Shown one piece after another: positions 37,701 through 61,291 of a stretch of 64,000 nucleotides of DNA. Made by a program: the position numbers and the translations under genes. Origin of the DNA: Corallococcus soli (GTDB lineage Bacteria > Myxococcota > Myxococcia > Myxococcales > Myxococcaceae); the NCBI RefSeq assembly GCF_014930455.1, contig NZ_JAAIYO010000002.1:1-64000 (forward strand), written 5' to 3'. Position 1 is the first letter of the stretch. Each line of letters opens with the position of its first letter. The notes below the pieces were generated by a model. The model saw only the letters and a list, made by a program, of their open reading frames with translations. It did not search any database and was not told where the DNA came from.

Positions 37701-38699
37701 AACGGCACGTCCTGATGGTCGTAGGCGTTCAGCGTGACGCGCTTCACCCGGCCCAGCAGCTCGCGGAAGGTGGGGTCTCCGCCCAGCCGCGTGCGCAGCA
37801 CCAGCGTGTTGACGAAGAAGCCGATGAGCCCTTCGGTCTCCCTGCGCGTGCGGCCGGCGATGGGCGCGCCCACGCTGACGTCGTCCTGCTCCGCCCAGCG
37901 TGAGAGCACGGCCTGGAAGCCCGCGAGCAGACCCATGAACAGCGTGGCGCCTTCCTGCTGGCACAGCGCCGTCAGGTCCTGCGCCAGCTTCCTGGGGAAG
38001 CGCAGCTGGAAGCTCGAGCCCGGCTGCCGTGAGCCCGGGGACCGGGGCCGGTCCGTGGGCAGCGCCAGCGACGCCGGGGCCCCCGCGAGCTGGTTCCGCC
38101 AGTAGTCGAGCTGCGCCTCCAGCACGTCCCCCTGGAGCCAGTCGCGCTGCCAGACCGCGTAGTCCGCGTACTGCACGGGCAACGGCGACAGCGCCAGCGG
38201 CTGGCCGGAGAGGGTGGCCGCGTAGCGGGAGATCATCTCCCGGACGAACAGGGCCATGGACCAGCCGTCGGAGACGATGTGGTGCATCGTCACGAGCAGC
38301 ACGTGCTCGGACTGCGTCAGCCGCAGCAGCCGTGCCCGCAGCAGCGGACCCCGGGCGAGGTCGAAGGGCCGCCGCGCTTCCTCCTCCGCGAGGCGCCGGG
38401 CGGCCACCTCCCGCTCCTTCGCGGGCAGCGTGCCCAGCTCCTCCACGGGCAGCGGGAACGCGCTCGCCGGGGCGATGACCTGCACGGGCGTGCCCGCGTG
38501 GGTCGTGAAGGTGGTGCGCAGCGCTTCGTGGCGGCGCACCAGCTCCGTGAAGGCGCGCTCCAGGGCCGTCACGTCCAGCGCGCCGTGCAGTCGCATCGCG
38601 GCCGGGATGTTGTAGATGGGGAGGCCCGGCTGGTACTGGTCCAGGAACCACAGCCGCTGCTGCGCGAACGACAGCGGCAGGTTCCCGTGTCGCGGCATG
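34727..38699 (-). other. Synthetase module 5 and release: C-A5-PCP-TE
   Basis: HHIVSDG, YTSGSTGQPKGV, NAYGPTE and TSGKLDR are intact. The manual code is D-A-A-Q-F-G-A-I-D-K; the Asp at position 9 hints at a basic or polar side chain, but no sure match is known to me. The type I thioesterase (FFCVHPVGG, GWSMGG, GDHYTLV) releases the product by hydrolysis or ring closure. Confidence 0.8.
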
Positions 38700-47600: not shown

Positions 47601-50600
47601 GCGCCACCCTCCGCGACGGGAGCTTCGGTGGGCCGCGCACGCACGGGCATCACGTCCAGCGACAGCCGGGACAGCGGCTTCGTGGGCGAGGCGACGGCGT
47701 CGGAGAGCAGCGCCTGCAACTGGGACAACAGCCGCGCGATGGTGTCCGCGTCGAACAGGTCGACGGCGTACTCCAGCGTCCCGGAGAAGCCCCGGGCGTC
47801 CTCCCGCATCAACATCGTGAGGTCCGCGAGCGACGTGCCGTACTGCGCGGGCAGCTCGGTGACGTCGTAGTAGACCAGCCGCAGGCCGGGGAAGTCCTCG
47901 ATGGGCGCGGACACGTTCTCCGCGTGCAGCAGGAAGATGGCGTCGAACAGCCGACCCAGCCGGCCCTCCTCTCCGGGCTCCAGCTCCTCCAGCAGCTGCT
48001 CGTAGGGCACGTCCGGGTTCGCGAACGCGCTCAGCGTCGTGTCGCGCACGCGCAGCGCGAGCGTGCGGAAGTCCGGGTCCCCGGCCGCGCTCGTGCGCAG
48101 CGCCAGCGCGTGCGCCACGTAGCCGATTTGCGGCTCCAGCTCCGGCCGCGTCCGGTTGCCGATGGACGTGCCCACGACGATGTCCTCCTGGCCCGAGCAC
48201 CGGGCCAGGAGCGCCGTGAAGCCGGCGAGCAGCGTCATGTACCCCGTGAGCCCTTCACGCTGGCTGAACGCGTTCAGCGCGACGCTCAGCTCCTCCGTGA
48301 AGGTGAACGCGTGCCGCGCCCCGCGCCGCCGCGCCCCCGGGACGCGCGGGCGGTCCAGCGGCAGGGAGAGCGCCCCCGGGCGCCCCGCGAGCTGGCGCCG
48401 CCAGTAGGCCTGCTGATCCGCGAGCGTGCCGTCCGCGAGCACCTGACGCTGCCAGAGCGTGAAGTCGATGTACTGGATGGACAGCTCCGGCAGGGGCACG
48501 GGCACGCCGTGCACGAAGCCGGTGTAGAGCGCCAGCGCCTCGCGGATGAGGTTCACCAGCGACAGCGTGTCCGCGACGATGTGGTGGATGGTCACCAGCA
48601 GCACGTGCTCGGTGTCCGCCATCCGCAGCAGGCTCACGCGCACGAGCGGGCCGCGGTCCAGCTCGAACGGCGCCGCCGGCTCCAGCCGCGCGCGCCGCAG
48701 GGCCTCCGCCTCCAGGTCCCCGGCGAAGCCCCGCAGGTCCACCACGGGCAGGGAGATGCGCACCTCGGGCAGCAGGCGCGGCACGCCCCGGCCATTCACG
48801 TCGACGAAGACGGTGCGCAGCGACTCGTGGCGGCGGATGACCTCGTTGACGCCGCGCTCCAGGAGGTCCGGGCGCAGCGCACCGGAGACGCGGACGGCGA
48901 GGGGCTCGTTGAACAGCGAGCTGCCCGGCTCCCGCGCCCCCATCTCCCAGACGCGCTCCTGCACGTACGACAGCGGCAGCGTGCCCGTGCGCGGCCACGG
49001 CTGGATGGCCGCCGCCGCCTCGGGCGCTTCCCCTTCCTCCGCGCCGAGCAGCCCCTCCGCCTGGAGTCGTGCTTCGATGCGCTCGGCGAGCCCCGCGACG
49101 GTGGGCGCTTCGAACAGGTCACTCAGGGGCACCTGGGTGCGGAACGTCTCCCGCAGCCGCGTGAGCAGCTGCGCCGCCATGAGCGAGTTGCCGCCCAGGT
49201 CGAGGAAGTTGTCATCCAGGCCGATGTCCGTGATGCCCAGCCGCTCGCGCCACAGCTCCATCAGCCGCTGCTCGATGTCGCTCATGCCGGACGGCGCGGG
49301 CACGACGGCCACCGGGGCCACGGCCTCCGCCGGGGGCGCGGCCACGGCCACGGACACGGGGGCGACTTCCGGCAGGGGCAGCACGGCCCGGCCGTCCACC
49401 GCGATGCGAACGGTCTCGAACGGGTAGCCCGGCAGCGAGATGCGGCGGCGGGGACCGTGCGCGTGCAGGGCCTCCCAGTCCACGCTCGCTCCCAGGCGCC
49501 ACAGCGTGCCCACGGCCTCCAGCAGCGTCTGGGCATCGGACGTGGACGTGCCCGCGCGGCGCAGCGACGGCACGGCGACGGTGTCCTGCTCCGTGCGCAG
49601 GCGCAGCCGTGCGAGCGCGGTGAGCCCCTGGTCCGGGCCCGCCTCGATGAACAGCCCATGGCCGGAGTGCAGCAGGGTGTCCAGGCCGGCGGCGAAGCGC
49701 ACCGGCTCGCGCATCTGCCGCGCCCAGTAGCTGGGAGAGGTGGCCTCCTCCGGACGGATCCACGCGCCGGTGAGGCTGGACACGTAGGGCAGGGCCGGGG
49801 CCTTCAGCGACAGGCCCGCGACGGCCCGCTCCAGCTCGGGCATCAGCGGCTCCACGGCGCGCGAGTGGAAGGCGTGCGATGCGGGCAGGCGCACCACGCC
49901 CACGCGCCGTCCCGCGAGCGTGCGCTCCAGCGCGGCCAGCGGCTCCAGCGGCCCGGACACCGTGCAGCGGTCGGCGCCATTGACGGCGGCCACCTCCAGC
50001 GTGTCGGAGAGCAGCGGGCGGACGTCCTCCGCGGACATCCCCACCGCGAGCATCCCGCCCGAGGGCAGCCGGGACATCAGCTCGCCCCGCACCACCGCCA
50101 GCCGCAGCGCGTCCTCCAACGACAGCACGCCCGCGACGCAGGCCGCCGCGTACTCACCGAAGCTGTGCCCCAGGAGCGCGGTGGGCTTGAGCCCCAACCC
50201 CATCCACCACCGGGCGAGTGAGACCTCCACGGCCAGCAGCGCGGGCAGCGCGAAGCGGGGCTCGGCGAGGGCCGCCTCCGCCCCGGCCTCCCCGCCCGGC
50301 GGCGGGAACAGCACGGGCCGCAGGTCCTGCTTCAGCCCCACGGACGGCAGCAGGGCCAGGCACGACTCCAGCGCCTCCTGGAAGCGGGGCTCGGTGTCGA
50401 ACAGCTCGCGGGCCATGCCCACGGACTGGGCGCCCTGGCCCGGGAAGAGGAAGGCCACGCGCCGCGAGGGCGGAGCGTCCAGGTCCCGCACCGTGGACGT
50501 CGTGCCGGGCTTCCGCAGCGCCTCCACGAGTCCGGTGACGTCCTCCGCGACCACCGTGCGGCGCACCTCGAAGCCCTTGCGGCCCACGTTGCGCGTGAAG

Positions 50601-53600
50601 GCCACGTCCGCGAGGTCCACGTCCGCGCGCGCCTCCACCGCGTCGGCCAGGGAGCGCGTCACCGCCTCCAGCGCGGCGGGCGTGCGGGCGGACAGCGTGA
50701 CGAGCTGCCTTGAGCGGCGGGGCCCCTGCTCTCTGGAGGCAGGCTCGCGCGGGGGCGCTTCCTCCAACACGACGTGCGCGTTGGTGCCACCGATGCCGAA
50801 CGAGCTGACGGCGGCGCGGCGCGGGCCGTGGGTGCGCTCCCACGGACGCAGCGTTGTGTTCACGAAGAAGGGGCTGCGCGCGAAGTCGATCTCCGGGTTG
50901 GGCTGCTCGAAGTGGAGGCTGGGGGGCACCTCCGCGTGGTGCAGCGCGAGCGCGGCCTTGATGAGGCCGGCGATGCCCGCCGCCGTGTCCAGGTGCCCGA
51001 TGTTCGTCTTCACGGACCCCAGCGCGCAGTAGCCCGTGCGCTGCGTGTGCGCGCGGTAGGCCCGCGTGAGGGCCGCCACCTCGATGGGGTCGCCCAGCGA
51101 GGTGCCGGTGCCGTGCGCCTCCACGTACTCCACGCTGTCCGCGTCCACGCCCGCCGCCGCGAGCGCCCGGGCCACCACCTGCGTCTGTCCCTGGACGCTG
51201 GGCGCGGTGTAGCTGACCTTGGCCGCCGCGTCGTTGTTGAGCGCGGAGCCCTTGATGACCGCGTACACGCGGTCCCCGTCCCGCACGGCGTCCGCGAGCC
51301 GCTTGAGCACCACCACGCCCAAGCCGCTGCCCAGCACGGTGCCCCGGGCCTTCGCGTCGAACGCGCGGCAGTGGCCGTCCGGTGAGAGGATCATCCCCTC
51401 CTGGAAGAGGTAGCCCGTGCGCTGGGGCAGGGACACCTTCACCGCGCCCGCCAGCGCCAGGTCCGACTGCCGGGCGCGCAGGCTCTGGCAGGCCAGGTGC
51501 ACCGTGACGAGGCCGGTGGAGCACGCGGTGTAGACGTTGAGGCTCTCACCGCCGAGCTTCAGCTTGTAGGCCGTCTTGGTGGCCACGTTCTCGCCGCCCG
51601 TGGTCCCCAGCGCCTCGAACAGGGAGGCGGGGTCCTTGCGCGTCTGTCCCAGCAGCGACAGCAGGTGCACGCTGGAGCTGCCCGCGCCCGCGTACAGCGA
51701 GACGGGCTCGGTGATGCGCTCCGCGTCGTAGCCCGCGTCCTCCAGGGCGTTCCACGCGCACTGGAGGAACAGGCGCTGCTGCGGATCCATCCACTGCGCC
51801 TCGCGCGGGGACAGGCCGAAGAAGGCCGCGTCGAAGCCGTCCGCCTCCTCCAGCACGCCGCCGGCCGGCACGAAGTCGGGATGCTCCCGCAGGGTGTCCG
51901 GGAGCAGCGGCGACGACTCCAGCTCCTCCTTCGTGAAGCGCGTGATGGACTCCACGCCCTCGCGCAGGTTGCGCCAGAACGCGTGCACGTCCGGCGCGCC
52001 GGGGAAGCGGCCCGCCATGCCGATGAGGGCGATGTCGCCGGAGTCCTGCGCGGAGGCCTCGCGCAGGGCCGCCGGGCGGGGCGCGGGGGCGGTGGCGGTG
52101 GCGGTGGCCTCGCGCTCCAGCCTCGCGGCCAACTGGACCACCGTCGGGTGTTCGAAGAAGTAGGTGACGGGGATGTCCCGGCCCAGGGCCTCGCGCAGCT
52201 GCGTGCTGGCCTTCACCACGAGGAGCGAGCTGCCGCCCAGGTCCTCGAAGAAGTGCGCGTGCAGGCCCACGCGCGGCACGTCGAGCACGCGCGCCCAGAC
52301 CTCGGCGATGCGCTGCTCCGTCTCAGTGACGGGCGCGGCGAAGGGTGTGTCCGTCGTGGCGGCGGGCACTCCGGGGGCGGGCAGGGCCGCGCGGTCCAGC
52401 TTGCCTCCCGGGGTGAGGGGCAGCGCGTCCATCCGCACGAAGGAGGACGGCACGAAGGCGTCGGGCAGGCGCTCCTTGAGGAAGCGGCGCACGGCCGGAA
52501 GCTCCAGGGACTCCTCCGCGACGACCCAGGCGCACAGCCGCGTCTCGCCCGCGACCTCGCGCGGCAGCACCACCGCCTGACGCACGCCCGGAACCTGGGC
52601 CAACACCGCTTCCACTTCACCCGTCTCCACGCGGATGCCGTGCACCTTCACCTGGGCATCGCGGCGGCCCAGGAACTCCAGGCGGCCGTTGGACAGCGTG
52701 CGCACCATGTCGCCGGTGCGGTACAGCCGGGCGCCGGGCTCGGCGGAGAACGGGTCGGGCACGAAGCGCTCGGCGGTGAGCGAGGGGCGCTCCAGGTAGC
52801 CCCGCGCCACGCCCACGCCTCCCACGTACAGCTCTCCCGGCACGCCCACGGGCACGGGCTCGCCGCGCCCGTCGAGCACGAACATGCGCACGCCCGGGAT
52901 GGCGCGACCGATGGACGGACGTCCGGTGTCCACGTCCGGCTCCACGGTCGCGCAGATGGTGACCTCGGTGGGACCGTAGGCATTGATGAAGTGACGGCCC
53001 GGGCTCCAGCGCGAGGCCAGCTCCGGCGTGCACGCCTCGCCCACCGACGCCACGACCTCCAGCAGGGGCAGCGCGGACGGCTCCAGGGGCGCCAGCGACG
53101 TGGGTGTGACGGTGAGGGTGGTGATGCGCTCGGAGACGAGCACCTGCTGCAACGGAGGCCCCGGCAACAGGGACTCCGGGGGGGCGAACACCAGCGTCGC
53201 GCCGGACAGGAGGGTGGAGAACAGCTCGCACACCGAGGCGTCGAAGCCGATGGACGCCAGTTGCAGGAGCCGGCGGCCCGGACGCAGCGCGAGGGCGGAG
53301 CGCAGGGCGATGGCCGTGTTGCACAGGCCGTGGTGTGGCAGCAGCGCGCCCTTGGGCGTGCCGGTGGAGCCGGAGGTGAAGATGGCGTAGGCGAGGTGCG
53401 CGGGCGTGACGGCCGGCGCGGGCTCAGGCGGCAGGGCTGGCAGCGCGTCCAGTGAAGCCCGCGCTTCGTCCAGCACCACCAGCAGCTCACCCTGGGACGC
53501 CAGGCGATCCGCCAGGGCCTCCTGGCTCAGCAACACCGACACCCGGGCTTCGCGCAGCATCGCCTCCAGCCGTGCCGCGGGCTGCCCCGGATCCAACATC

Positions 53601-56600
53601 AGGAACGCGCCGCCCGCCTTGAGCACGCCGAACAGCGCCACCGCCAGGTCCGGGGTGCGCTCCAGGTGCACGCCGACGAGCTGCTCCGGCCGGACCCCCA
53701 TCGCGATGAGGTGCCGCGCGAGCTGGTTGGCCCGGGCATCGAGCTGCGCGTACGTGAGCGTCGCTTCGCCCAGCGCGACGGCGACGGCCTCCGGCGTGGC
53801 GCGGGCCTGCGCCTCGAAGAGGCGGTGCGCGAGGTCGGGCGCCACGGCGGGGCCGGTGGGACGCCACGCCTCCATCACCTGGCGGCGGTCCTCCGGCGTC
53901 AGCAGGGGCAGCGCGGTGATGGCCTGCCCGGGGTGCGCCGTCGCGCCGGCCAGCAGCGTGTCCAACTGTCCGAGCATCCGCGCGATGGTGTCCGCGTCGA
54001 AGAGGTCGGTGGCGTACTCGCACATCAGCTCCAGCCCGTCCCCGGAGTCGGTGACGGAGAGCGTGAGGTCCAGCTTGGTGGCGCCCGTGTCCCCCAGGGC
54101 GCTGCCAAGCGTGAGGCCGGGCAGGTGCACCGGGTGGGACGCGGCGTCCTGGAGGACGAGCTTCACCTGGAAGAGGGGCGCGTGCGCGAGGCTGCGCTCC
54201 GGGTTGAGGCCGCGCACCATCGCGTCGAAGGGCAGGTCCTGGTGCGCCCACGCCTCCAGGGTCGCGCGGTGGCTCCGGTGCAGCAGCTCCTGGAAGGACG
54301 GCGCGCCGGAGAGGTCTCCGCGCAGCGGGAGCTGGTTGACGAACAGCCCGACGATGCCCGCCGTCTCCGGCCGGACGCGGTGCGCGGTGTCCACGCCCAC
54401 CACCACGTCCTCCTGCCCGGTGTAGCGGTGCAGCAGCACCTGGAAGCCCGCGAGCAGCGCCACGAAGGGCGTGGTGCCTTCACGCGACGCGAGCGCCTTC
54501 ACCCGCTCCCAGGCGGCCTTCTCCAGCCGGTGGGTCCGCTGCGCGCCCCGGTAGGACTGCACGCGGGGACGGCGACGGTCGCCGGGAAACTCCAGCACGG
54601 GCGGTGCTCCGGCCAGCTTCCGACGCCACCAGCCGAGCAGGTCTTCCTGGCGCTCACCGCGCAGCCACGAGCGCTGCCACGCCGCGTGGTCGGCGTACTG
54701 GAGCGGCAGCTCCGGCAGGGTGGGGACGCGCCCGGTGGACAGCGCCGCGTAGGCCTCCGCCAGCTCGCGCAGCAGCACGCGCAGGGACCAGCCGTCCGCG
54801 ACCAGGTGGTGCACCGTGAGCAGCAGCCAGTGCCGCGCGGGCTCCAGGCGCAGCAGCGTCACCCGGAGCAGGGGGCCCCGGACGAGGTCGAAGGGCCGTC
54901 GTGCCTCTTCGTCCGCGAGCCGCCGTGCCTCGGTTTCGCGCGCTTCGGCGGGTGTTGACGCGAGGTCCACCACGGGCAGTGACAGCGTGAGGTCCGGGAG
55001 GATGCGCTGGCCGGGTTCACCGCGCGTCTCCACGAACACCGTGCGCAGGGCTTCATGGCGCCGCACGAGGAACTGGAGGCCCTGCTCCAGCGCCGCCACG
55101 TCGAGCGTCCCGTCCAGCCGGGACACGATGGGGACGTTGTAGAAGGCGCTGCCCGGCTCCAGGCGGTCCAGGAACCACAGGCGCTCCTGCGCGAAGGACA
55201 GCGGCATGGACTCGGTGCGCGGCACGCGGACCGGCGCGGAGCGGGGAGCAGGCATGGAAGCCGTGGCCTCGCGCACCAGCTCCGCGACGCTCGCGCCGCG
55301 CAGCAGCGCCTCCATGGGGACGGGCGCGCCCAGGGTCTGCTCCAGCGCGTGCGCCAGCTCCACCGCCGCCAGCGAGTCCAGCCCGTAGCGCGTCAGCGGC
55401 GCATGGACATCCAGGTCCTCGGCGCGGGCGCCCACCCGCGCCGCCACCCGCGCGAGCACGCGGGACTCCAGCTCCGAAGCGGGTGCCCCGGTCCTCTCCT
55501 CCTGCGCTTCCCGTCGCGAGGCCTCGACGCGCGGCTCCGAAGCCCTCACGTCGGAGGCCCGTTCCGGCGCAGGTGCGTGCGGCTCCGCGGGGGCCGTCTC
55601 GGGAGCACGCCACGCATGCAGCTCGCGCAGGCCGCCCGCGAGGAACGCCGTGCGCGTGGCCCGCCGCTGCACCTTGCCGCTGGACGTCTTCGGCAGGCTC
55701 CCTGGCTCGATGAGCACCACCGCGTGGGGCATCACCTCGTGCGCCTCCGCCAGCCGCTGCCGGATGGCGCCCAGCAAGCCCGCTGGCTCGCCATCCCACT
55801 TGCGCGGATCCACCTCCTGCACCACGACGAGCCGCTCCTCGCCGTCCACCTGGACGCCGAACGCCACGCCGCAGCCGGGCCGCAGCGCGGGGTGGCTCTC
55901 CTCCACCACGGCTTCCAGGTCCTGCGGATACAGGTTGCGGCCTCGCAGGATGATGAGGTCCTTGGCGCGGCCCGTGACGTACAGCTCCCCCGCGTCCAGG
56001 AACCCCAGGTCCCCGGTGCGCAGGAACGGCCCCTCTCCCGTGGCGATGCGCGCGCCGAAGACCCGCGCGGACTCCTCCGGCTGACGCCAGTAGCCCTGGG
56101 CCACGCTGGGCCCCTTCACCCAGACCTCCCCCACCTCGCCCGGCTCCATCACCCGGCCGGAGTCCGGCTCCACCACGAGCAGCTTCTGCGCCGCCACCGT
56201 CGTGCCGCAGCCCACCAGCGTCCGGGCCTGCCGTGACGGCTCCCGCGCGTGGCCTGCCTCCAGCGCGGAGGCGTCCACGTCGCGCAGGATGGGCGCGGCC
56301 TCCTTCGCGCCGCCGGAGACGATGAGCGTCGCCTCCGCCAGCCCGTAGCAGGGATAGAACGCCTCGCGACGGAACCCCTGCGGCGCGAAGGCCTCCGCGA
56401 AGCGCGCCAGCGTGTCCGGGCGGATGGGCTCCGCGCCGCAGAACGCCACCTCCCAGCGGCTCAGGTCCAGGCCCTGCCGCTCCGCGGGGGGGATGCGACG
56501 CACGCACAGCTCGAACGCGAAGTTGGGGCCGCCGCTGATGGTGCCGCCAAAGCGCGTCAGCGCCTCCAGCCAGGCGCGCGGGCGCTTGAGGAACGACAGC

Positions 56601-57304
56601 GGTGACATCAGCGCCGTGTGGAAGCCCTGGGCCAGCGGCACCAGCACGCCGCCGATGAGCCCCATGTCGTGGTAGGGCGGCAGCCAGATGACGCCCACGC
56701 TGTCGTCACGCGTCTGGAAGGAACGGCGGATGGCGTCCAGGTTGTGCAGCAGGTTGCCGTGGCTGAGCATCACGCCCCGGGGCGTGCCGGTGCTGCCCGA
56801 CGTGTATTGCAGGAAGGCCAGCGTGTCGGCCGTCACGTCCGGGCGCTTCCACGCGGCCTCTGCGCCCGCCTCCAGCGCGTCCGTCGCCACCCACTTCAGC
56901 GCGCGCAGCTCCGGCGCGTCCGTGAAGAGGAACTCCGCCATCGACAGGATGACGGAGTTGGTGAGCACCACCGTGGCCCCCGAGTCCGCGATGAGCGCGC
57001 GCAGGCGGGGCAGGGTGCGCTCCAGCCGGGACGGATCCGGCGGATACGCCGGCACCGCCACCAACCCTGAACACACGCAGCCGAAGAAGCCCGCGAGGTA
57101 GTCCGCACCCGGCGGGTAGAGCAGGACCGCGCGCGCGCCCTGGGGGGCGAGTGACTGGAGCGCAGCGGCGATGCGGTGGGCTCGCGAGGCCAGGTCGCCC
57201 CGCGTGAGGGGCACCTCCGCGTCGTCCTCCAGGAAGGTGTAGAGGCGCTGGTCCGGACGACGCGTGCTTCGCTCTTCGAGGAGATCGATCAGGGTCACGG
57301 GCAT
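34727..57304 (-). CDS. Hybrid NRPS-PKS megasynthase with FAAL loading and terminal thioesterase
   Basis: A single protein of about 7525 residues building a lipopeptide-polyketide in the cytoplasm. Approximate order with key residues: FAAL 1-570; ACP Ser644; C (HHxxxDG at 832); A1; PCP Ser~1692; KS (Cys1928); AT (GHSFGE Ser2381, HAFH ~2477, so malonyl); ACP Ser2707; C (HHIVADT at 2907); broken A2 with luciferase-like monooxygenase 3461-3808, no PCP; Pro/Ala linker; C (4210); A3 degenerate; PCP Ser5081; C (5274); A4; PCP Ser6149; C (6341); A5; PCP Ser7208; TE (GWSMGG Ser7332). There are no KR, epimerase or methyltransferase domains. The start at 57304 matches FAAL N-termini; a GTG at 57343 is the alternative. 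No clear ribosome site precedes either. An IS4 element lies 109 bp upstream. Confidence 0.95.
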   Translation of the reverse strand: MPVTLIDLLEERSTRRPDQRLYTFLEDDAEVPLTRGDLASRAHRIAAALQSLAPQGARAVLLYPPGADYLAGFFGCVCSGLVAVPAYPPDPSRLERTLPRLRALIADSGATVVLTNSVILSMAEFLFTDAPELRALKWVATDALEAGAEAAWKRPDVTADTLAFLQYTSGSTGTPRGVMLSHGNLLHNLDAIRRSFQTRDDSVGVIWLPPYHDMGLIGGVLVPLAQGFHTALMSPLSFLKRPRAWLEALTRFGGTISGGPNFAFELCVRRIPPAERQGLDLSRWEVAFCGAEPIRPDTLARFAEAFAPQGFRREAFYPCYGLAEATLIVSGGAKEAAPILRDVDASALEAGHAREPSRQARTLVGCGTTVAAQKLLVVEPDSGRVMEPGEVGEVWVKGPSVAQGYWRQPEESARVFGARIATGEGPFLRTGDLGFLDAGELYVTGRAKDLIILRGRNLYPQDLEAVVEESHPALRPGCGVAFGVQVDGEERLVVVQEVDPRKWDGEPAGLLGAIRQRLAEAHEVMPHAVVLIEPGSLPKTSSGKVQRRATRTAFLAGGLRELHAWRAPETAPAEPHAPAPERASDVRASEPRVEASRREAQEERTGAPASELESRVLARVAARVGARAEDLDVHAPLTRYGLDSLAAVELAHALEQTLGAPVPMEALLRGASVAELVREATASMPAPRSAPVRVPRTESMPLSFAQERLWFLDRLEPGSAFYNVPIVSRLDGTLDVAALEQGLQFLVRRHEALRTVFVETRGEPGQRILPDLTLSLPVVDLASTPAEARETEARRLADEEARRPFDLVRGPLLRVTLLRLEPARHWLLLTVHHLVADGWSLRVLLRELAEAYAALSTGRVPTLPELPLQYADHAAWQRSWLRGERQEDLLGWWRRKLAGAPPVLEFPGDRRRPRVQSYRGAQRTHRLEKAAWERVKALASREGTTPFVALLAGFQVLLHRYTGQEDVVVGVDTAHRVRPETAGIVGLFVNQLPLRGDLSGAPSFQELLHRSHRATLEAWAHQDLPFDAMVRGLNPERSLAHAPLFQVKLVLQDAASHPVHLPGLTLGSALGDTGATKLDLTLSVTDSGDGLELMCEYATDLFDADTIARMLGQLDTLLAGATAHPGQAITALPLLTPEDRRQVMEAWRPTGPAVAPDLAHRLFEAQARATPEAVAVALGEATLTYAQLDARANQLARHLIAMGVRPEQLVGVHLERTPDLAVALFGVLKAGGAFLMLDPGQPAARLEAMLREARVSVLLSQEALADRLASQGELLVVLDEARASLDALPALPPEPAPAVTPAHLAYAIFTSGSTGTPKGALLPHHGLCNTAIALRSALALRPGRRLLQLASIGFDASVCELFSTLLSGATLVFAPPESLLPGPPLQQVLVSERITTLTVTPTSLAPLEPSALPLLEVVASVGEACTPELASRWSPGRHFINAYGPTEVTICATVEPDVDTGRPSIGRAIPGVRMFVLDGRGEPVPVGVPGELYVGGVGVARGYLERPSLTAERFVPDPFSAEPGARLYRTGDMVRTLSNGRLEFLGRRDAQVKVHGIRVETGEVEAVLAQVPGVRQAVVLPREVAGETRLCAWVVAEESLELPAVRRFLKERLPDAFVPSSFVRMDALPLTPGGKLDRAALPAPGVPAATTDTPFAAPVTETEQRIAEVWARVLDVPRVGLHAHFFEDLGGSSLLVVKASTQLREALGRDIPVTYFFEHPTVVQLAARLEREATATATAPAPRPAALREASAQDSGDIALIGMAGRFPGAPDVHAFWRNLREGVESITRFTKEELESSPLLPDTLREHPDFVPAGGVLEEADGFDAAFFGLSPREAQWMDPQQRLFLQCAWNALEDAGYDAERITEPVSLYAGAGSSSVHLLSLLGQTRKDPASLFEALGTTGGENVATKTAYKLKLGGESLNVYTACSTGLVTVHLACQSLRARQSDLALAGAVKVSLPQRTGYLFQEGMILSPDGHCRAFDAKARGTVLGSGLGVVVLKRLADAVRDGDRVYAVIKGSALNNDAAAKVSYTAPSVQGQTQVVARALAAAGVDADSVEYVEAHGTGTSLGDPIEVAALTRAYRAHTQRTGYCALGSVKTNIGHLDTAAGIAGLIKAALALHHAEVPPSLHFEQPNPEIDFARSPFFVNTTLRPWERTHGPRRAAVSSFGIGGTNAHVVLEEAPPREPASREQGPRRSRQLVTLSARTPAALEAVTRSLADAVEARADVDLADVAFTRNVGRKGFEVRRTVVAEDVTGLVEALRKPGTTSTVRDLDAPPSRRVAFLFPGQGAQSVGMARELFDTEPRFQEALESCLALLPSVGLKQDLRPVLFPPPGGEAGAEAALAEPRFALPALLAVEVSLARWWMGLGLKPTALLGHSFGEYAAACVAGVLSLEDALRLAVVRGELMSRLPSGGMLAVGMSAEDVRPLLSDTLEVAAVNGADRCTVSGPLEPLAALERTLAGRRVGVVRLPASHAFHSRAVEPLMPELERAVAGLSLKAPALPYVSSLTGAWIRPEEATSPSYWARQMREPVRFAAGLDTLLHSGHGLFIEAGPDQGLTALARLRLRTEQDTVAVPSLRRAGTSTSDAQTLLEAVGTLWRLGASVDWEALHAHGPRRRISLPGYPFETVRIAVDGRAVLPLPEVAPVSVAVAAPPAEAVAPVAVVPAPSGMSDIEQRLMELWRERLGITDIGLDDNFLDLGGNSLMAAQLLTRLRETFRTQVPLSDLFEAPTVAGLAERIEARLQAEGLLGAEEGEAPEAAAAIQPWPRTGTLPLSYVQERVWEMGAREPGSSLFNEPLAVRVSGALRPDLLERGVNEVIRRHESLRTVFVDVNGRGVPRLLPEVRISLPVVDLRGFAGDLEAEALRRARLEPAAPFELDRGPLVRVSLLRMADTEHVLLVTIHHIVADTLSLVNLIREALALYTGFVHGVPVPLPELSIQYIDFTLWQRQVLADGTLADQQAYWRRQLAGRPGALSLPLDRPRVPGARRRGARHAFTFTEELSVALNAFSQREGLTGYMTLLAGFTALLARCSGQEDIVVGTSIGNRTRPELEPQIGYVAHALALRTSAAGDPDFRTLALRVRDTTLSAFANPDVPYEQLLEELEPGEEGRLGRLFDAIFLLHAENVSAPIEDFPGLRLVYYDVTELPAQYGTSLADLTMLMREDARGFSGTLEYAVDLFDADTIARLLSQLQALLSDAVASPTKPLSRLSLDVMPVRARPTEAPVAEGGALPVLLANRAERTPEVVAVRQDEAVLTWRALREKAWALAERLRARGVGSGVPVAVCLEPSTERAVALWAVLASGGAYALVSPEGLGELASLGREGTPPLVVTDAGFILPPGVDADVLRIEEALSGGGAQAQGAGVDVDALACLAREGADTTRPRVMLSHRNLVHRLAAMDARVEARPGELWLSTSDAAADPADLELLWALSRGLSVVLPSRVALRDAPRRGGTAAKRALDFSLFYFANDGEASGRKKYQLLIDGAKFADAHGFSAIWTPERHFHDFGGPYPSPTATSAALAMVTERVSIRAGSVVLPLHDPLRVAEEWSVIDNLSNGRAGVSFATGWNANDFVFAPQNFHQRPEAVRRGVEEVRALWKGGTVRRTNGAGVEVDVAIRPRPVQAELPVWITAAFNPETFRMAGELGTGLLTNVLGLGQDFVELERKVAIYREARRKAGHPGRGHVVLMLHTFVTASREDVKRQAREPLLRYFRSSVELVNGLVASQGPGFDVRSLTPQDLDVLLEQGVSRYLESGGLFGTPDSLTARVEQLRQADVDEVACLIDFGIAPEITLEGLRHLDVLRRQSQGDAAPAAATPHVDGDGAGMLARLLRTSPSAHLRGSFELARTLAELPDARSVLGPVRTLVLDDAEGLSPDLAHALQRATSARIVSPVSLLPGAGEATAPGPRFVLDAAGRRAPVGVVGELFLGGDAVPLGFWKAPALTHERLPASPDGTGARLYGTGTQARYRADGEVELLTPTRRAPLPSSAPTPGMNARPATTPEPTVPKSAPLTGAPAPTRPAARAPLTPPPGPSARTPSPQGATARATPPTAPARAPAPAPETQSIQRVSRAGDLPLSFAQQRLWFLDQYEPGSALYNIPSAMRLEGTVDVSAMRRAFAEVMLRHEALHTTFQVRNGDPIQVISPTVDSALEVEDLSDRPPAEREAEAMRRAREEASAPFDLSRGPLLRTRLLRLSEREHLLLVTIHHIVSDGWSIGVLIREAVTLYEAFTSGRPSPLPALPIQYADFTVWQRDWLQGALLDKQLAYWRKQLEGAPPALELLTDHPRTGDTRNPGATHREVFPHALMQGLRALCRREKGTLFMGLLAGLQALLSRYTGQDDVSIGAPIAGRNHPQTEGLIGFFVNTLVLRTQLDGDPSFVELLRRVKAVTLGAYAHQDVPFEKLVEALQPPRMAGHTPFFQVTLVLLNTPVAELTGPGLTFRTLDVDSGASKFDFTLVFTETPRGLQVAFEYRSDLFEAATAARIMEHLRLLLEDAVAHPEHRLSELNLLSDTERQRVLMDWSAPPSQGPSEPPVHESFEAQARRTPDAVAALFEREALTYAELERRANQLAWHLLDSGVRPGDRVALCLEPSLELLVSVLAVLKSGAAVVPVDPDAPSEHLSFVLEDSGARGVLTQSRLLPRIPATQALSVCVDTEAGTFARLPSHAPPSATLPDSPCYLRHAPGTPGIVVAHRTLSSVVAWTRQRSSKLDAVTLQFASLDSDTAWQELFTAWSAGASVVVPPLEARQDLPALLALMARHGVERLFLPFMALQTMAELVAHGATVPRRLVEVVTDGEPLQVTPALVALFKRLPRGTLEHQYGPSEAQVVSAYRLRGPPDSWERLPPAGMPGPGTRLYVVDPIGRPCPTGVPGEVMVGGPQVALGYHARPGLTAERFVPDDLSGQPGARLFRTGDRARWRADGALELFGRLDRQERVRGFLIAADQVEAALREAPGVRAAAALVREDVPGDKRLVGYVVLQPDTAWDAEALRRALALRLPEYLLPTALVHLDALPLTPGGTLERGLLPAPDVEGPGETGSASRPPTPLEQMLADLFAQVLGLEEVGITESFFDLGGHSLLATQVASRLRTSLGVDVRLREMFDNPTVEALARQIEDRVPEAARAPRAPAITARPGVTSAELSFAQQRLWFLDQYAPGSALYNMPAALSLEGALNVSALTWAFTELVRRHQVLRTTFQVLDGTAAQVFAPPAPWRLSVESLEHLSPSEREDEAGRLAQEEARHPFDLARGPLLRTRLLRLAEREHLLLVTQHHIISDGWSIAVLVRELVTLYAARLADNPSPLPELPIQYADYAVWQREWLRGDALEAQVGYWRKQLEDAPPALELTTDHPRTPDTRNPGTWLGVELPLELMQSLRALCQQEGATLYMGLLAGLQTLLARYSGQDDICVGAPVAGRTQAELEGLLGFFTSTLVLRTKLDGDPTFRELLGRVKDVTLGAYAHQDVPFEKLVEALQPPRMPGRTPFFQVALVMLNTPSLELTVPGVQIQHLELDSGTAKFDFTFTLRESPEGIVGALEYRTDLYEAATAERMVAHLHALLKDAVAHPEQRLSTLSLLSDDERHRVLVEWNATAAPYPRDTAVHALFEAQAARTPEAVAVEFQGRTLTYAALDRRANQLAWHLRKGGLAPGARVALCLERSLELPVAVLGILKAGAAYVPLDPEAPLERQAFFLEDTGAAWVLTSEAMKQHLPATAPRRLLLDADAALLDAEPDTALESPLGADALAYVLYTSGTTGRPKGVCVPHRAIVRLVVGTDFARFGPDEVFLQLAPLAFDASTFELWGCLLHGGRLVLAEPKATSLEELGRTLDAHHVTTLWLTSALFEQLAATEPEALARVRQVLAGGDVLNPVRVREHVARAGRLVNGYGPTEGTTFTTCHVMTDADAVETPVSIGRPIANTRVYVLDEHLRPVPPGVPGELYVAGDGLAWGYLQRPALTAERFLPDAFSDAPGARMYRAGDRARWRADGTLQFLGRRDAQVKLRGFRVEPGEIEAVLLGHASVREAVVLARDDMPGGRALVAYVVPRATTAPARTGAPALLDVTALRGWLRERLPGYMVPSAIVLRASLPVTRNGKVDRRALPAPEVQGAEDGFVQPRTDTEARLATLWNELLGTKDTGAEDDFFDRGGHSLLATQLLSRIRATFAVEPRLQDLFEARTLEAQAAMLDATLARAVQLQAPPLRPMPRHGNLPLSFAQQRLWFLDQYQPGLPIYNIPAAMRLHGALDVTALERAFTELVRRHEALRTTFTTHAGTPVQVIAPASAFPLPVEELGTLPAKEREVAARRLAEEEARRPFDLARGPLLRARLLRLTQSEHVLLVTMHHIVSDGWSMALFVREMISRYAATLSGQPLALSPLPVQYADYAVWQRDWLQGDVLEAQLDYWRNQLAGAPASLALPTDRPRSPGSRQPGSSFQLRFPRKLAQDLTALCQQEGATLFMGLLAGFQAVLSRWAEQDDVSVGAPIAGRTRRETEGLIGFFVNTLVLRTRLGGDPTFRELLGRVKRVTLNAYDHQDVPFEKLVEVLQPKRQVEGTPFFQVSLVMLNTPAVELSLNGMRIEPLPVDAGTAMFDLSLTLTEKPEALEGTVEYRTDLYDRDTIERLMGHLRVFLEDAVAHPQRRLSELSLLTEAEREQVLDGWTRARADLPRDSSVHALFEAQARKTPDAVAVEHDGRAVTYRELDARAAGLARRLRAIGIPTGARVALLLERSHALPVALLGALKAGATYVPLDASAPPERLAFQLEDAGVTALLTEPQLRDRRPAFTGRVIDVGADLESTPEGAPLPDVPPELPAYVLYTSGSTGQPKGVLISHRALVNHATWLGTTFALGAGDRQLQLAAPGFDASAAEVFSTLLSGATLVLAPPDAQRDSALLADTLSRQRITVLQAVPSVLRFLAVEPAFAKATHLRLLFCGGEALTPDLAARLRSVSPAVRLVNAYGPTEATIDATWSAVTGEESGMTVPIGRPVANAEAYVLDAALRPVPVGIPGELHLGGVPLAHGYLGRPALTAERFIPHPFATEPGARLYRSGDRARWLSDGRLQFLGRLDHQVKLRGLRVEPGEVEAALVLHPGVREAAVVVHDGAAHGPVLVAYVVSRPPPPVEAEALRAFLRRTLPEALVPSAFVALAALPRTTSGKLDRRALPAPDLQRADLAVVAPRTDTEVRLAALWRDVLKQDDVGATDDFFARGGHSLLATQLLSRIRAAFQVELPLQALFEAPTLEGLAARIDAGTSSDSPLVMLRKGGGRTPFFCVHPVGGSVLGYLELARRMEPEQPFYGLQVPRDGAGTTVEAMATRYLGSMRGVQPVGPYRLGGWSMGGHIAYEMARQLHALGEAVEVLVVIDAMGDAPASAQPLTPDEALGQQVLEFAVHLSRLADVHPRAAEVLGLVDPVELRQVLEGAPDAGTSGGLEEAAREELRELWRRFKVNQGASSTYVPGPYDGALVLLRAEQGPEAPADLGWSALARGGVTVHTVTGDHYTLVRPPHVDALAERLRTLLAAPPKPDGSDD
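38700..41929 (-). other. Synthetase module 4: C-A4-PCP, valine predicted
   Basis: HHIISDG, YTSGTTGRPKGV, NGYGPTE and RNGKVDR are intact. The manual specificity code is D-A-F-W-L-G-G-T-F-K, one conservative change from the classic Val code DAFWIGGTFK. Val, or possibly a close branched residue, is predicted. Confidence 0.85.
41930..45079 (-). other. Synthetase module 3: C-A3(degenerate)-PCP
   Basis: The C domain has HHIVSDG and the PCP has LGGHSLL. A3 has lost the P-loop (RHAPGTPGIVVAHR instead of TSGSTG), has an altered A4 region (DSDTAWQE) and carries Thr5024 where the catalytic Lys belongs (TPGGTLER). Adenylation by A3 is unlikely. Confidence 0.85.
45080..49029 (-). other. Synthetase module 2: C and broken A2 carrying a monooxygenase, no PCP
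   Basis: The C domain reads HHIVADT (the usual Gly is Thr). The A2 domain keeps an N-terminal half and weak A6-A8 remnants (VGVVGELFLGG, LYGTGTQAR), but the P-loop SGSTG is replaced by GADTTRPRV, and there is no NGK lysine segment and no carrier protein. A Pro/Ala-rich linker of about 90 residues closes the unit. Confidence 0.85.
45880..46922 (-). other. Luciferase-like monooxygenase domain inside A2 (MupA/Atu3671 type)
   Basis: About 348 residues from ALDFSLFYFAND to LDVLRRQSQ with flavin luciferase-like features: GFSAIWTPERHFHDFGG, RAGSVVLPLHDP, VAEEWSVIDNLSNGR, SFATGWN. It matches the natural-product luciferase-like monooxygenase family (TIGR04020) known from synthetase lines, and would oxidise a carrier-bound intermediate using FMNH2 and oxygen. 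Confidence 0.88.
49030..52089 (-). other. Synthetase PKS module: KS-AT-ACP
   Basis: The ketosynthase has the Cys/His/His set (TACSTG, EAHGTGT, NIGHLD). The acyltransferase has GHSFGE and HAFH, the malonyl type. With no ketoreductase in the module, the extension should leave a beta-keto group unless it is changed in trans. Confidence 0.88.
52090..55249 (-). other. Synthetase module 1: C-A1-PCP
   Basis: The condensation domain has an intact HHLVADG and would acylate the first amino acid with the fatty acid. A1 has normal core motifs (FTSGSTGTPKGA, NAYGPTE, GGKLDR). My manual ten-residue specificity reading is D-A-C-T-A-V-A-I-C-K, nearest in layout to the Phe-type GrsA code, so an aromatic or hydrophobic residue is a tentative guess. 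Confidence 0.8.
55250..57304 (-). other. Synthetase loading unit: FAAL and ACP
   Basis: A fatty-acyl-AMP ligase (LQYTSGSTGTPRGVMLSHGN, WLPPYHDMGLIGG, GLAEATL, LYPQDLE) activates a free fatty acid without CoA and hands it to the following carrier (YGLDSLAAVEL). The HDMGLIGG motif with the FAAL-type insertion favours transfer to an ACP. Chain length cannot be read from sequence. Confidence 0.9.
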
Positions 57305-57400
57305 GGGAGCGGAGATGCGGGCGCATCGGGGGGGAGCCCGCACCTGCTCGGACGATACCTCAAGACCTCCGGGCCTCCGCGAACCCGGCCGCGGTCGTCA

Positions 57401-57413
57401 GGCCCTCAGTAGC
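57401..57413. repeat. Target-site duplication, left of IS4 element
   Basis: GGCCCTCAGTAGC, identical to 58961-58973, directly outside the left inverted repeat. A length of 13 bp fits the 10-13 bp duplications made by IS4-type transposases. Confidence 0.88.
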
Positions 57414-58960
57414 ACCCCTTTAAACATCTTCGGCATCGGCTCCCTGCGGGGAGGAAGGCGTGCTGGCTGGCAAGCAGGTGTGCGCTGCAAGGGGCTGCTC
57501 CATCGGCACGCCCTGCCCCCTGTGCGGACGGTAGCCCCTTGGCCACTCTTGGACTGGAGGTTCTACCGTCATGTTCGATGCCATCGTGGAGCGCTTCCTT
57601 GCCCAGAGTCCACTCACCGTCATGGCCCGGGTGGTACTGGAGCGTGCCTGTGACGCGGCGTGGGTGGATGCGGCGTTCCATGAGCACCGGAGCCGGCAGT
57701 ATGAGCGCGAGTTGCTTTTCTCCGACATCGTCGACCGAATGAGCCTGGTCGTGCTGGGCTTGCGCCCCTCGCTGCATGCGGCGGCGCAGCGGCATCGACT
57801 GCCCGTCTCGGTGCAAGCGCTTTACAAGAAGGTGAACCGGACCGAGCCGGCGGTCCTCAGGGCGCTGGTGCGTGGCGCGTACGCGCGGCTGGCTCCGGTG
57901 CGCTGCGCGATGGGCCAGGGGGAAGCGGTTTGCGAAGGGATGGCCGTGCGCATCGTGGACGGCAACGACTTGCCGGCGAGTGACAAGCGCCTTTCTGCGT
58001 TGCGTGGCTTCCGGGGCGCCGCGATGCCGGGCCAGTCCCTCGTGCTCTATGACCCGGACCTGGACCTGGTGGCCGACGTGCTCCCCTGGGAGGACGCGCA
58101 TGACCATGAGCGCTCGCTGCTCCAGCATCTGCTGCCGCAAGTCGAGCCAGGACACCTCTGGGTGGCGGACCGGGGTTTCAGCACGCGTTCGATTCTCCAG
58201 ACATTCGCCGCCCACGACGCTTTCCTGCTGGTTCGTGAGCATGCACGCAATCCCTCACCGACCGAGGAGCGCCCGCGAAGGAAGGTGGGGCGCATCGAGA
58301 CCGGCACGGTATTCGAGCAGCCGGTGTCCATTCCAGACGGAGCCAGCGGCCTGCTGCGACTGCGGCGCATCGAGATTGAACTCGACGCGCCGACCGAGGA
58401 CGGCGAAACCGTCATCCGGCTGCTGACAAACGTCCCAGCGGACCGCAAGGCGGCCACCACCCTCGCCCAGCTGTACCGCACGCGCTGGCGCATTGAATGC
58501 CTTTTTGGCCGCCTGGAATCCGTCCTCGAAAGCGAGGTACGAAGCCTTGGCTCTCCCCGGGGCGCCCTACTTGGATTCTGCGTCGCACTGGTGGCCTACG
58601 ACGTGTTGGCCCTTTTGCAGGCGGCGGTGCAGACCGCCCATCCGGTGTGCGAGGAGAAACCCATCTCCCCCTTTCTACATCGCGGCCGAACTGCGCGAGT
58701 ACTACGGCGGAATGAAGGCCGCCCTCCCGGAGGAAGTCTGGGTGCCATACGAAAGCCAGACATCGAAGCGGCTGGCCCGGACGCTGGTGGAAATGGCAAG
58801 GCACGTAGACCCCGTGATGCTCCTCAAGCATCCTCGCGGGCCGAAGCCAGGGAAGAGGAAAGGCTACGCACCAAGCAGTGAGGTGCGCCGGCAGGTCGCG
58901 ACGTCACGCGTCCTCACTGCCGGCACCGTCGACTACGTCAAGCAAGATGTTTAGAGGGAT
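57414..58960 (+). mobile_element. IS4-family insertion sequence, 1547 bp
   Basis: A complete element with 17-bp ends: left ACCCCTTTAAACATCTT (57414-57430) and, read inward from the right (58944-58960), ATCCCTCTAAACATCTT; 15 of 17 positions agree. It is bounded by a 13-bp direct repeat and holds one transposase gene with a frameshift. It inserted across the stop codon of the outer-membrane protein gene, and the duplication rebuilt that stop, so the protein is intact. The empty site would place that gene's stop only about 0.1 kb upstream of the synthetase start. Confidence 0.92.
57571..58954 (+). pseudogene. IS4-family transposase, frameshifted
   Basis: The DDE transposase is recognisable from MFDAIVERFL onward. 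The first Asp is in RIVDGNDLP, the second in WVADRGFST and the Glu in the YRTRWRIECLF (Y-(2)-R-(3)-E) signature of IS4. After EEKPISPF (about 58668) the homologous frame continues one base later as FYIAAELREYYGGMKA... and ends at 58954 (...TVDYVKQDV) inside the right inverted repeat. The first frame instead runs on to 58881 with unrelated sequence. One extra base in the CCCCCTTT run explains this. The shift is +1, not the -1 used by programmed IS frameshifts, so inactivation or a sequencing error is likely. Confidence 0.85.
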
Positions 58961-58973
58961 GGCCCTCAGTAGC
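58961..58973. repeat. Target-site duplication, right of IS4 element
   Basis: GGCCCTCAGTAGC, the right copy. It contains the TGA stop (minus strand, 58966-58968) of the outer-membrane protein gene. Confidence 0.88.
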
Positions 58974-59583
58974 TGCCTCCAATGTGCAGCGTTCCCTGGT
59001 AGCGGCCGTCTCCGGCGCCCAGGTCCTGCGCCCTCGCGAAGTCCTGCCCGAAGAGGAAGCTGTAGCTGCCGCGCAGCTCCGCCGTGAGCCGGGGGCTGAG
59101 CTGGTAGCGCAGGCCCCCGCCTACAGGCGCGTAGCCGCCCGTGTCGTCGAAGAACTGGAAGAAGTTTCCCATGCGCACGGAGTAGCGCTCCACGCCAATG
59201 CCCGCGAGCACGAAGGGCTGGAGCCGCGTGGAGGTGAACCCCAACGTGAGGGCCGCCTGCGCGCCGTTGCGCACGATGTCCGGGTTGCCGATGGACGGAC
59301 TCTCGGAGACGGTGAGGCTGCTGGCGCCGCCGCTGTAGCCCACCTCCACGCCCAGGAAGTCGTTGGGGCGGTAGCCCAGGGTGACGCCGTAGGCCGGCCC
59401 CGGCTCCAGGTTGGGCGCGAGCTTCCCCGTGTAGCCCTCCACGCCCAGACCCAGCAGGAAGTAGGGGCCCTTCCACTCCACCTGCCGCGACCGCAGCGGC
59501 GCGTCATCAGGAGGTGCCTGGGCCGCTGCGGCCCCACCCGTCAACCCCACCAGGCAGAGCGCCAGTCCAATGCCTCGCCTCAT
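58966..59583 (-). CDS. Outer-membrane beta-barrel protein (OmpA-like 8-strand type)
   Basis: A 205-residue exported protein. The signal peptide MRRGIGLALCLVGLTGGAAAAQA is followed by alternating hydrophobic-aromatic strands (PYFLLGLGVEGYTG, YGVTLGYRPNDFLGVEVGYSGG, LQPFVLAGIGVERYSV, GGGLRYQLSPRLTAELRGSYSFLFG) and a C-terminal aromatic (GGSY). This layout fits a small outer-membrane barrel of the OmpA/OmpW-like type. The start at 59583 has GGGAG upstream; longer in-frame starts bury the signal. It reads toward the synthetase gene, from which an IS4 element now separates it. The function is unknown. Confidence 0.82.
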   Translation of the reverse strand: MRRGIGLALCLVGLTGGAAAAQAPPDDAPLRSRQVEWKGPYFLLGLGVEGYTGKLAPNLEPGPAYGVTLGYRPNDFLGVEVGYSGGASSLTVSESPSIGNPDIVRNGAQAALTLGFTSTRLQPFVLAGIGVERYSVRMGNFFQFFDDTGGYAPVGGGLRYQLSPRLTAELRGSYSFLFGQDFARAQDLGAGDGRYQGTLHIGGSY

Positions 59584-59824
59584 GTCCGCTCCCTTCGTTG
59601 TTGTCCACGCGTCTCCAAGGTGGCCCTCCAGGGATGGACGGACAACGAACGGACAGGCGGTACCCTGAAGGCCCACGGTGCCCCCTGGGGCCGGGCGTGC
59701 GTCCTGCTCCCGCGAGCCCTCGCCCGCCTCCCTGCCTGGCGCCTGTGTGGCGCCTCCGGAACTTCCACCTTGAGGGTTGGCCGGCGCCATTCCCCCACGT
59801 CTTCCCGGCCACGGAGCGCAAGCC

Positions 59825-61171
59825 ATGGACGACACCGCCATCTCCCCATCTTCCGGACACGAAGCCTGGAGCGAGCACCCGTCACCCGACCTGAAGGCCC
59901 GTGCCCGCCACGTCCTCCAACACCTGGACGCGGTGCTGCCGGACGTGGACGCGCTCTACGGAGACCTGCATGAGCACCCGAAGCTGTCCGGCGACGAAGC
60001 CCGCACGGCGGACGAGGTGGCGCGGCGGCTGGAGGCCATGGGCTACGAGGTGAGCCGGGGCGTCGGAGGCCACGGCGTGGTGGGGCTGCTGCGCAACGGG
60101 GACGGGCCCACGGTGCTGCTGCGCGGGGACATGGACGCGCTGCCCGTGGAGGAGAAGACGGGGCTGCCGTACGCGAGCCGCGTCAGGACGGAGGACGGGC
60201 GGCCGGTGATGCACGCGTGCGGCCACGACGTCCACACCGCGTGCCTCGTGGGCACGGCGGCGCTGCTGGCCCGCTCGCGCGATGCCTGGCGCGGCACGGT
60301 GCTGGTGGTGGGACAGCCGGCGGAGGAGGCGTTGAGCGGTGCCCGCGCGATGCTGGAGGACGGGCTGTATGCGCGCTTCGGCACGCCGGACGCCGTGCTG
60401 GGCCAGCACACCGCCCCGCTGCCGGTGGGCACGTTCATGCACCGCGAGGGCGTGGCGATGATGGGGGCGGCGAGCGTGCGCATCCGCCTCTTCGGCAAGG
60501 GGGCCCACGGGGCGCAGCCCGAGCTGTCAGTGGATCCGGTGGTGCTGGGGGCCAGCGTGGTGATGCGGCTGCAGACCATCGTGTCGCGCGAGCTGTCGCC
60601 CCTGGAGGCGGCGGTGGTCACGGTGGGACACTTCCAGGCCGGCTCGCGCAGCAACGTGATTTCGGACGAAGCGCTGCTGGAGGTGACGGTGCGCACGGAG
60701 GACGACGCGGCGAAGGCCCGCGTCCTCGCCGCCATCGAGCGCATCGCGAAGGGCGAGTCCCTGGCCTCGGGCTCGCCGAAGCCGCCCCAGGTGGAGGTGG
60801 TGGCGAGCACGCCGGTGAACCGCAACGACCCGGCCCTGCTGCGGCGCATCCGGGCCGCGCACGCGGAGTGGTTCGGACCGGATGCGCTGTTGCCCGGCGT
60901 GCTCGGCACCGCGAGCGAGGACTTCCCCTACTTCGCGCAGGGGCCGGAGCACCCGGTGCCCACGGCGTACTGGTTCGTGGGCGTCACGCCGCTGGAGACC
61001 TGGGCGCGGGCTCCCGGCACGACGCCGCTGGAGAAGGTGACGCACGTGCCGGGGCCGCACTCGGGATACTACGCGCCGGACCGGCAGGGCTCGCTGCGCA
61101 AGGGGTGCGAGTCGCTGACCGTGGCGGCCCTGGCCTGCCTGCACGGGGGCACGACCTCCACCGACCATTGA
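59825..61171 (+). CDS. M20 family amidohydrolase/peptidase
   Basis: A 448-residue cytoplasmic metallo-hydrolase of the M20D (amidohydrolase, HipO/AmhX-like) group. DLHEHPKLSGDEARTADEV, LLRGDMDALPVEEKTGLPY, MHACGHDVHTACLVG and GQPAEEALSGARAMLEDG carry the metal ligands and catalytic Glu. The lid domain lies at about 215-330 (GKGAHGAQPELSVDPV, with the lid His), and a late TASEDFPYF has the final metal Glu. Family members remove N-acyl groups from amino acids (hippurate, acetyl- or indole-amides). The start at 59825 has GGAG 8 bp upstream. It diverges from the outer-membrane gene. Confidence 0.92.
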   Translation: MDDTAISPSSGHEAWSEHPSPDLKARARHVLQHLDAVLPDVDALYGDLHEHPKLSGDEARTADEVARRLEAMGYEVSRGVGGHGVVGLLRNGDGPTVLLRGDMDALPVEEKTGLPYASRVRTEDGRPVMHACGHDVHTACLVGTAALLARSRDAWRGTVLVVGQPAEEALSGARAMLEDGLYARFGTPDAVLGQHTAPLPVGTFMHREGVAMMGAASVRIRLFGKGAHGAQPELSVDPVVLGASVVMRLQTIVSRELSPLEAAVVTVGHFQAGSRSNVISDEALLEVTVRTEDDAAKARVLAAIERIAKGESLASGSPKPPQVEVVASTPVNRNDPALLRRIRAAHAEWFGPDALLPGVLGTASEDFPYFAQGPEHPVPTAYWFVGVTPLETWARAPGTTPLEKVTHVPGPHSGYYAPDRQGSLRKGCESLTVAALACLHGGTTSTDH

Positions 61172-61220: not shown

Positions 61221-61291
61221 TTCCTGTCGCTTGCCCCCGACGCAAGGGCCTCCACCTTGAGAGGCGGACGACACTTCTGGAGGAACCCCCG

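Follow-up and report, generated by a model that had tools for sequence, protein, structure and literature searches.

Genes at the locus

The window, by which we mean the whole stretch of 64,000 nucleotides of Corallococcus soli that was analysed, contains a hybrid NRPS/PKS synthetase gene (34727..57304, minus strand) with a fatty acyl-AMP ligase as its first domain and a thioesterase as its last. Upstream of it on the same strand lies the gene for an outer-membrane beta-barrel protein (58966..59583, minus strand; 205 amino acids, PF13505), and upstream of the barrel gene is a divergent M20 amidohydrolase gene (59825..61171, plus strand). The barrel and synthetase genes are separated by an IS4-like insertion sequence of 1549 bp (57413..58961, plus strand), whose transposase is oriented opposite to both of its neighbours. 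Both flanking frames are intact: the barrel frame and its stop codon (58966-58968, minus strand) are unbroken after the insertion, and the synthetase frame runs from its ATG (57304-57302, minus strand) through 7525 amino acids without an internal stop. A GTG at 57343 was considered as the main start of the synthetase and rejected, since the relatives conserve the ATG at 57304 and have indels that break the GTG frame. The synthetase of G009 (loci L061/L062) is longer than that of the window, at 9704 versus 7525 amino acids, and in the window protein the GGHSL carrier motif and the condensation motif each have two fewer matches.

Two further conserved sequences are located 5' of the barrel gene. 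The sequence CTTCCACCTTGAG (59762-59774), between the barrel and M20 genes, is invariant in 15 aligned genomes (the window and 14 relatives). A near copy is found at 61249-61261, ahead of the gene at about 61.3 kb, and the genome has 42 matches with at most one mismatch versus 23 for the reversed control. The second, TGTCCGTTCGTTGTCCG (59639-59655, minus strand), is strongly though not perfectly conserved in the aligned relatives, and is perhaps the barrel promoter or an operator.

Boundaries and target site of the element

The boundaries of the element are established directly. Alignment with the two other full-length copies (in G007 and G008, about 90% identical) places its ends at C57413 and G58961, and its 18-nt terminal inverted repeats (57413..57430, plus strand, and 58944..58961, minus strand) are 89% complementary. 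The element is flanked by a perfect 11-bp target duplication, GCCCTCAGTAG with the core CTCAG, at 57402..57412 on the synthetase side and at 58962..58972 on the barrel side, where it includes the barrel stop codon. The earlier note had reported a 13-bp repeat here; the 13-bp direct repeat is real, but the target duplication accounts for 11 bp of it and a chance match on each side for the rest. The perfect duplication, the inverted ends, the transposase, and the empty sites described below together exclude a chance origin and bear out the earlier statement that an IS4-type element separates the two genes. The whole genome (G000; 9.44 Mb in 68 contigs) contains a single match to the element, so repeats do not make the junctions ambiguous, and both of them lie within a 1.08-Mb contig.

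The element is rare, and three full-length copies were found altogether, in the window, G007, and G008. All three are flanked by 11-bp duplications (GCCCTCAGTAG, GGCCTGAGAGG, and ACTCTAAGTCG), in agreement with the roughly 10 bp by which the IS4 family is recognized. The sequence CTNAG occupies positions 4-8, the centre of the duplication, in each of the three (L075, L076, and the window). It is also present at four of ten further single element ends, most of them degraded, a count that excludes the poor one-ended match L095 and in which L100 and L105, being one site, were counted once (11 rows becoming 10). In the window the CTNAG core consists of the last coding base of the barrel gene, its stop codon, and the following G (C-TGA-G on the minus strand). 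Targets of the CTNAG type can thus coincide with C-TGA-G stop codons.

The transposase frame (57571..58881, plus strand; 436 amino acids) matches the NCBIfam model NF033592, 'IS4 family transposase', scoring 131.7 bits where the cut-off is 115. After about residue 366 it is out of register, and the displaced C-terminus is found in a second reading frame (58493..58954, plus strand). The frameshift falls at a run of five Cs near 58667. Both full-length relatives have a single uninterrupted transposase frame, and programmed frameshifting was rejected for this reason. The window element is probably immobile now, unless the C run is a sequencing error. The Y, R, and E of the YREK motif, in which E and K have a spacing of 6, are present in the intact G007 copy (YRTRWRIECLFGRLE), and the position of the K is taken by an E. 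The motif being incomplete, we call the element IS4-like, in the sense of NCBIfam.

Empty sites and gene pairing

In all 15 other genomes of the genus that were examined, the barrel gene is followed by the first domain of the synthetase and the element is absent, so that the comparison of empty sites proposed in the earlier note gave a uniform result. One of these, G015, has a barrel gene truncated by a contig end and therefore entered neither the fourfold-site count nor the barrel tree. Nine relatives carry the ligase fused into a long frame of up to 9,765 amino acids, with those of G003 and G015 reaching the contig end. In the nine relatives with a full synthetase, the gap from the barrel stop to the synthetase ATG is 99-104 bp. 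With the element removed, the window gap is 101 bp between 58966 and 57304, both genes being on the minus strand, which agrees with the previous estimate of about 0.1 kb. The corollary that the insertion leaves a mere 100 bp or so for a synthetase promoter is misleading, because these relatives have no more than 99-104 bp there and the promoter-like block described below is intact within it.

Same-strand adjacency of the two genes, which we took as one criterion for an operon, holds in 15 of 15 other genomes of the genus and was not found outside it. A search of 96 genomes of the family (E 1e-150) recovered the first domain of the synthetase in 12 genomes from four other genera, and no barrel homologue was found within 1.5 kb upstream in any of the 12. 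Conversely, two other genera provide seven genomes with barrel homologues of 58-64% identity, and no such synthetase was found near them in the 20-kb regions searched (0 of 7). In five of these seven (G051, G052, G073, G083, and G088) both genes are present at separate loci. Barrel gene and synthetase are therefore not an ancient unit, because they lie apart in genomes outside the genus.

Shortly after the barrel stop, the loci L061, L063, and L064, from three close relatives, have a perfect stem of 6-8 bp with an 8-nt loop. Its counterpart in the window consists of 5 bp and now lies between the element and the synthetase.

A conserved promoter-like block

We identified a conserved block, GTCTTGAGGTATCGT (57352..57366, minus strand), between the element and the synthetase gene. 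Its core, TGAGGTATCGT (57352-57362), begins with a TG at -58 relative to the ATG and ends in the -10-like hexamer TATCGT (57352-57357); sequences of the form TAnnnT resemble the bacterial -10 box. The pattern TG(A/G)(C/G)GTAnnnT is found 55 to 60 nucleotides before the ATG at all ten loci of the genus with a full synthetase, the window among them, and 59 to 73 nucleotides before it in 10 of the 12 genomes of other genera, while it is absent before the synthetase in the remaining two, G051 and G052, which belong to one genus. Both the pattern, including its TAnnnT end, and the limits of the block were set after the alignments had been viewed, so that the hits have the TAnnnT form in part because the pattern demands it, and genomes within one genus are related rather than independent samples. 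When the 12 outside upstream regions were dinucleotide-shuffled 1000 times, a mean of 0.018 regions and at most one per set matched the pattern. Conservation of the block in four genera is a direct observation.

The 64-kb window contains one occurrence of the pattern, that before the synthetase. A narrower form, TGRSGTATYNT, occurs seven times in the 9.4-Mb genome versus four times in the reversed control. Four of the seven occurrences precede a plausible gene start, at 58 nucleotides for the window site and at 19, 43, and 155 for the others. The 15-mer block is not enriched across the genome (36 matches with at most three mismatches versus 50 in the reversed control), and the idea of a regulon-wide motif was dropped. 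Among nine genomes, 23 of 30 columns of the block are invariant, compared with 9 of 31 just upstream and, at fourfold-degenerate positions in the flanking genes, 176 of 360 (Fisher p 0.0027 for block versus fourfold sites, with G015 left out and the limits chosen post hoc). A scan for sigma-70-like promoters found none on either strand of 57200-59900, a scan that is weak in a GC-rich genome.

Because the block accompanies the synthetase and not the barrel gene, it is most simply interpreted as the core of the synthetase's own promoter. It is intact in the window and retains 46 bp of native sequence (57367-57412) up to the element. Downstream of the block, the ATG is preceded by a possible leader hairpin (57316..57342, minus strand; arms 57336-57342 and 57316-57322). 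The gap folds no more stably than shuffled sequences do (z 0.18), and in an RNAalifold consensus of the gap, 2 of 21 pairs are changed on both sides.

An orphan ligase in six genomes

Six genomes of the genus (G004, G006, G008, G010, G011, and G014) have lost the synthetase and retain a fatty acyl-AMP ligase alone, of 601-612 amino acids, directly after the barrel gene (loci L065, L067, L070, L071, L072, and L073). This orphan ligase breaks off within the carrier domain, short of the serine motif, and GLDS is absent from all six. In five of the genomes the orphan ligase is followed by the two genes that come next downstream of the synthetase in the window; in G004, where the ligase is near a contig end, they were not found in the region examined. 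The ligase ATG is 7 bp past the barrel stop in four genomes. In G004 one ATG overlaps the barrel stop and another is located 11 bp on, and in G014 the nearest in-frame start seen is a TTG that overlaps the barrel stop.

In a ligase tree with the outside genome G022, the six form one clade nested among the other genomes (support 100/98), and the same clade appears in the barrel tree, in which G015 and G022 were not included (support 84/79). Because they form a single clade inside the others, the synthetase was most simply lost once, with the ligase kept, and the tight barrel-ligase pair is likely a derived operon. Pairwise dN/dS ranges from 0.20 to 0.40 for the orphan ligase (15 pairs) and from 0.15 to 0.25 for the fused form (seven chosen pairs), which suggests a protein that is constrained and perhaps slightly relaxed. 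As a speculation that we consider rather unlikely, the ligase may have survived in this clade under purifying selection, coupled to the barrel gene and possibly re-used with the barrel protein for lipid chemistry of the envelope. If this were true, selection would maintain the link between barrel and ligase rather than the peptide product, and the insertion in the window would break that link.

Consequences of the insertion

We consider it likely that the insertion was nearly harmless, having struck a stop-codon target and left the synthetase its own promoter. A single IS4-like element would have inserted at the CTNAG formed by the barrel stop codon, duplicating 11 bp and leaving both proteins intact, and the synthetase would be transcribed from a promoter with the core TGAGGTATCGT, 58 bp before the ATG and between the insertion and the gene. 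The effect would be mild: at most, the synthetase would have lost transcription reading through from the barrel gene, which is possible, or a regulator site in the 3' end of that gene. The sequence displaced by the element is barrel coding sequence, in which a regulatory site is indistinguishable from coding constraint, and the conservation of the block was measured on retained, not displaced, sequence. Silencing of the synthetase, as had been proposed for the pathway, appears unlikely, because the promoter-like block is intact between the element and the synthetase. The uninterrupted frame of 7525 amino acids does not support it either. The block may well be sufficient for expression and the pathway may still be working.

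The evidence also has to be weighed against a polar effect, in which synthetase RNA formerly came mostly from read-through of the barrel gene and is now cut off by the 1.5-kb antisense element, leaving the pathway reduced or silent. The short distance between these same-strand neighbours (99-104 bp in nine relatives) and their linkage in all 15 argue for such an effect, as do the tight barrel-ligase pair of the six-genome clade and the failure to find a terminator-like site in 57200-59900. We nevertheless regard it as unlikely, since the block persists between the element and the synthetase and is present also where the barrel gene is missing upstream, and since the seven outside genomes with barrel homologues have no such synthetase within the 20-kb regions searched, five of them encoding it elsewhere. 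The same comparison bears on the suggestion in the earlier note that the two genes may have been one transcript: their linkage is genus-wide, but it is doubtful that they shared a transcript, given a promoter-like block at 10 of 12 outside loci that have no barrel gene within 1.5 kb upstream.

Outward promoters and hybrid promoters formed at an insertion site are known for other insertion sequences, and the left end of the element faces the synthetase, so that the element itself could drive the gene, either from an outward promoter or from a hybrid one formed at that end. The transposase frame points away from the synthetase, and no sigma-70-like site was found in the element or its surroundings, although this is a weak test in a GC-rich genome; such dependence, which had also been suggested, is very improbable. 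We give still less credence to assembly errors as the source of the frameshift or the junctions. Runs of a single base are a common site of sequencing error and the frameshift sits in one, but the perfect target duplication, the single match in the genome, and the position of both junctions inside a 1.08-Mb contig place the insertion itself beyond this doubt, which is limited to the frameshift. On the reading that we prefer, that of a nearly harmless insertion, the earlier note was accurate on position and over-read the consequence.

An intergenic insertion sequence is nothing unusual by itself. The block is of wider interest as a candidate promoter core for a family of lipid-initiated synthetases that spans four myxobacterial genera, and it could help to switch such clusters on. 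In addition, a single genus provides a natural series: an intact pair, a pair split by an insertion sequence, and a lost synthetase with its ligase beside the barrel gene.

Relation to known systems

Among the matches listed, and in the portions of the sources that were accessible, the locus is undescribed in the literature on Corallococcus FAALs and insertion sequences, myxoprincomide (PMC11619377, PMC12766979), IS4 targets, lipopeptides, and myxobacterial clusters. Myxoprincomide is reportedly conserved in Myxococcus and Pyxidicoccus, and Corallococcus is not among the genera named in the accessible part of that report (PMC12766979).

According to the accessible part of the survey of De Palmenaer et al. 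(2008; PMC2266710), duplications in the IS4 family measure 7-13 bp across the subgroups and 4-6 bp in the emerging families. The 11 bp in the window fall within the 10-13 bp of the IS4 subgroup and the 10-12 bp of IS231. The window element also resembles the family as described there in its CA-type ends and terminal inverted repeats (CACCCCTTTAAACATCTT / CATCCCTCTAAACATCTT), and one end of the G007 copy starts with TA. In contrast, the strict definition given in the same part of that survey (PMC2266710), which includes a complete YREK, does not fully apply to this element, owing to the replacement of K by E. The accessible part of a study of IS10 (PMC10294622) gives the target preference NGCTNAGCN, whose symmetric CTNAG core is likewise central in the duplications of our element (3 of 3). 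It differs from IS10 as described there in its 11-bp rather than 9-bp duplication and in that we saw no requirement for flanking G/C.

The synthetase itself is similar to the FAAL-initiated NRPS/PKS lines described in the accessible part of a review (PMC11837247), in that a starter fatty acyl-AMP ligase is likewise combined with carrier, condensation, adenylation, KS-AT, luciferase-like monooxygenase, and thioesterase domains.
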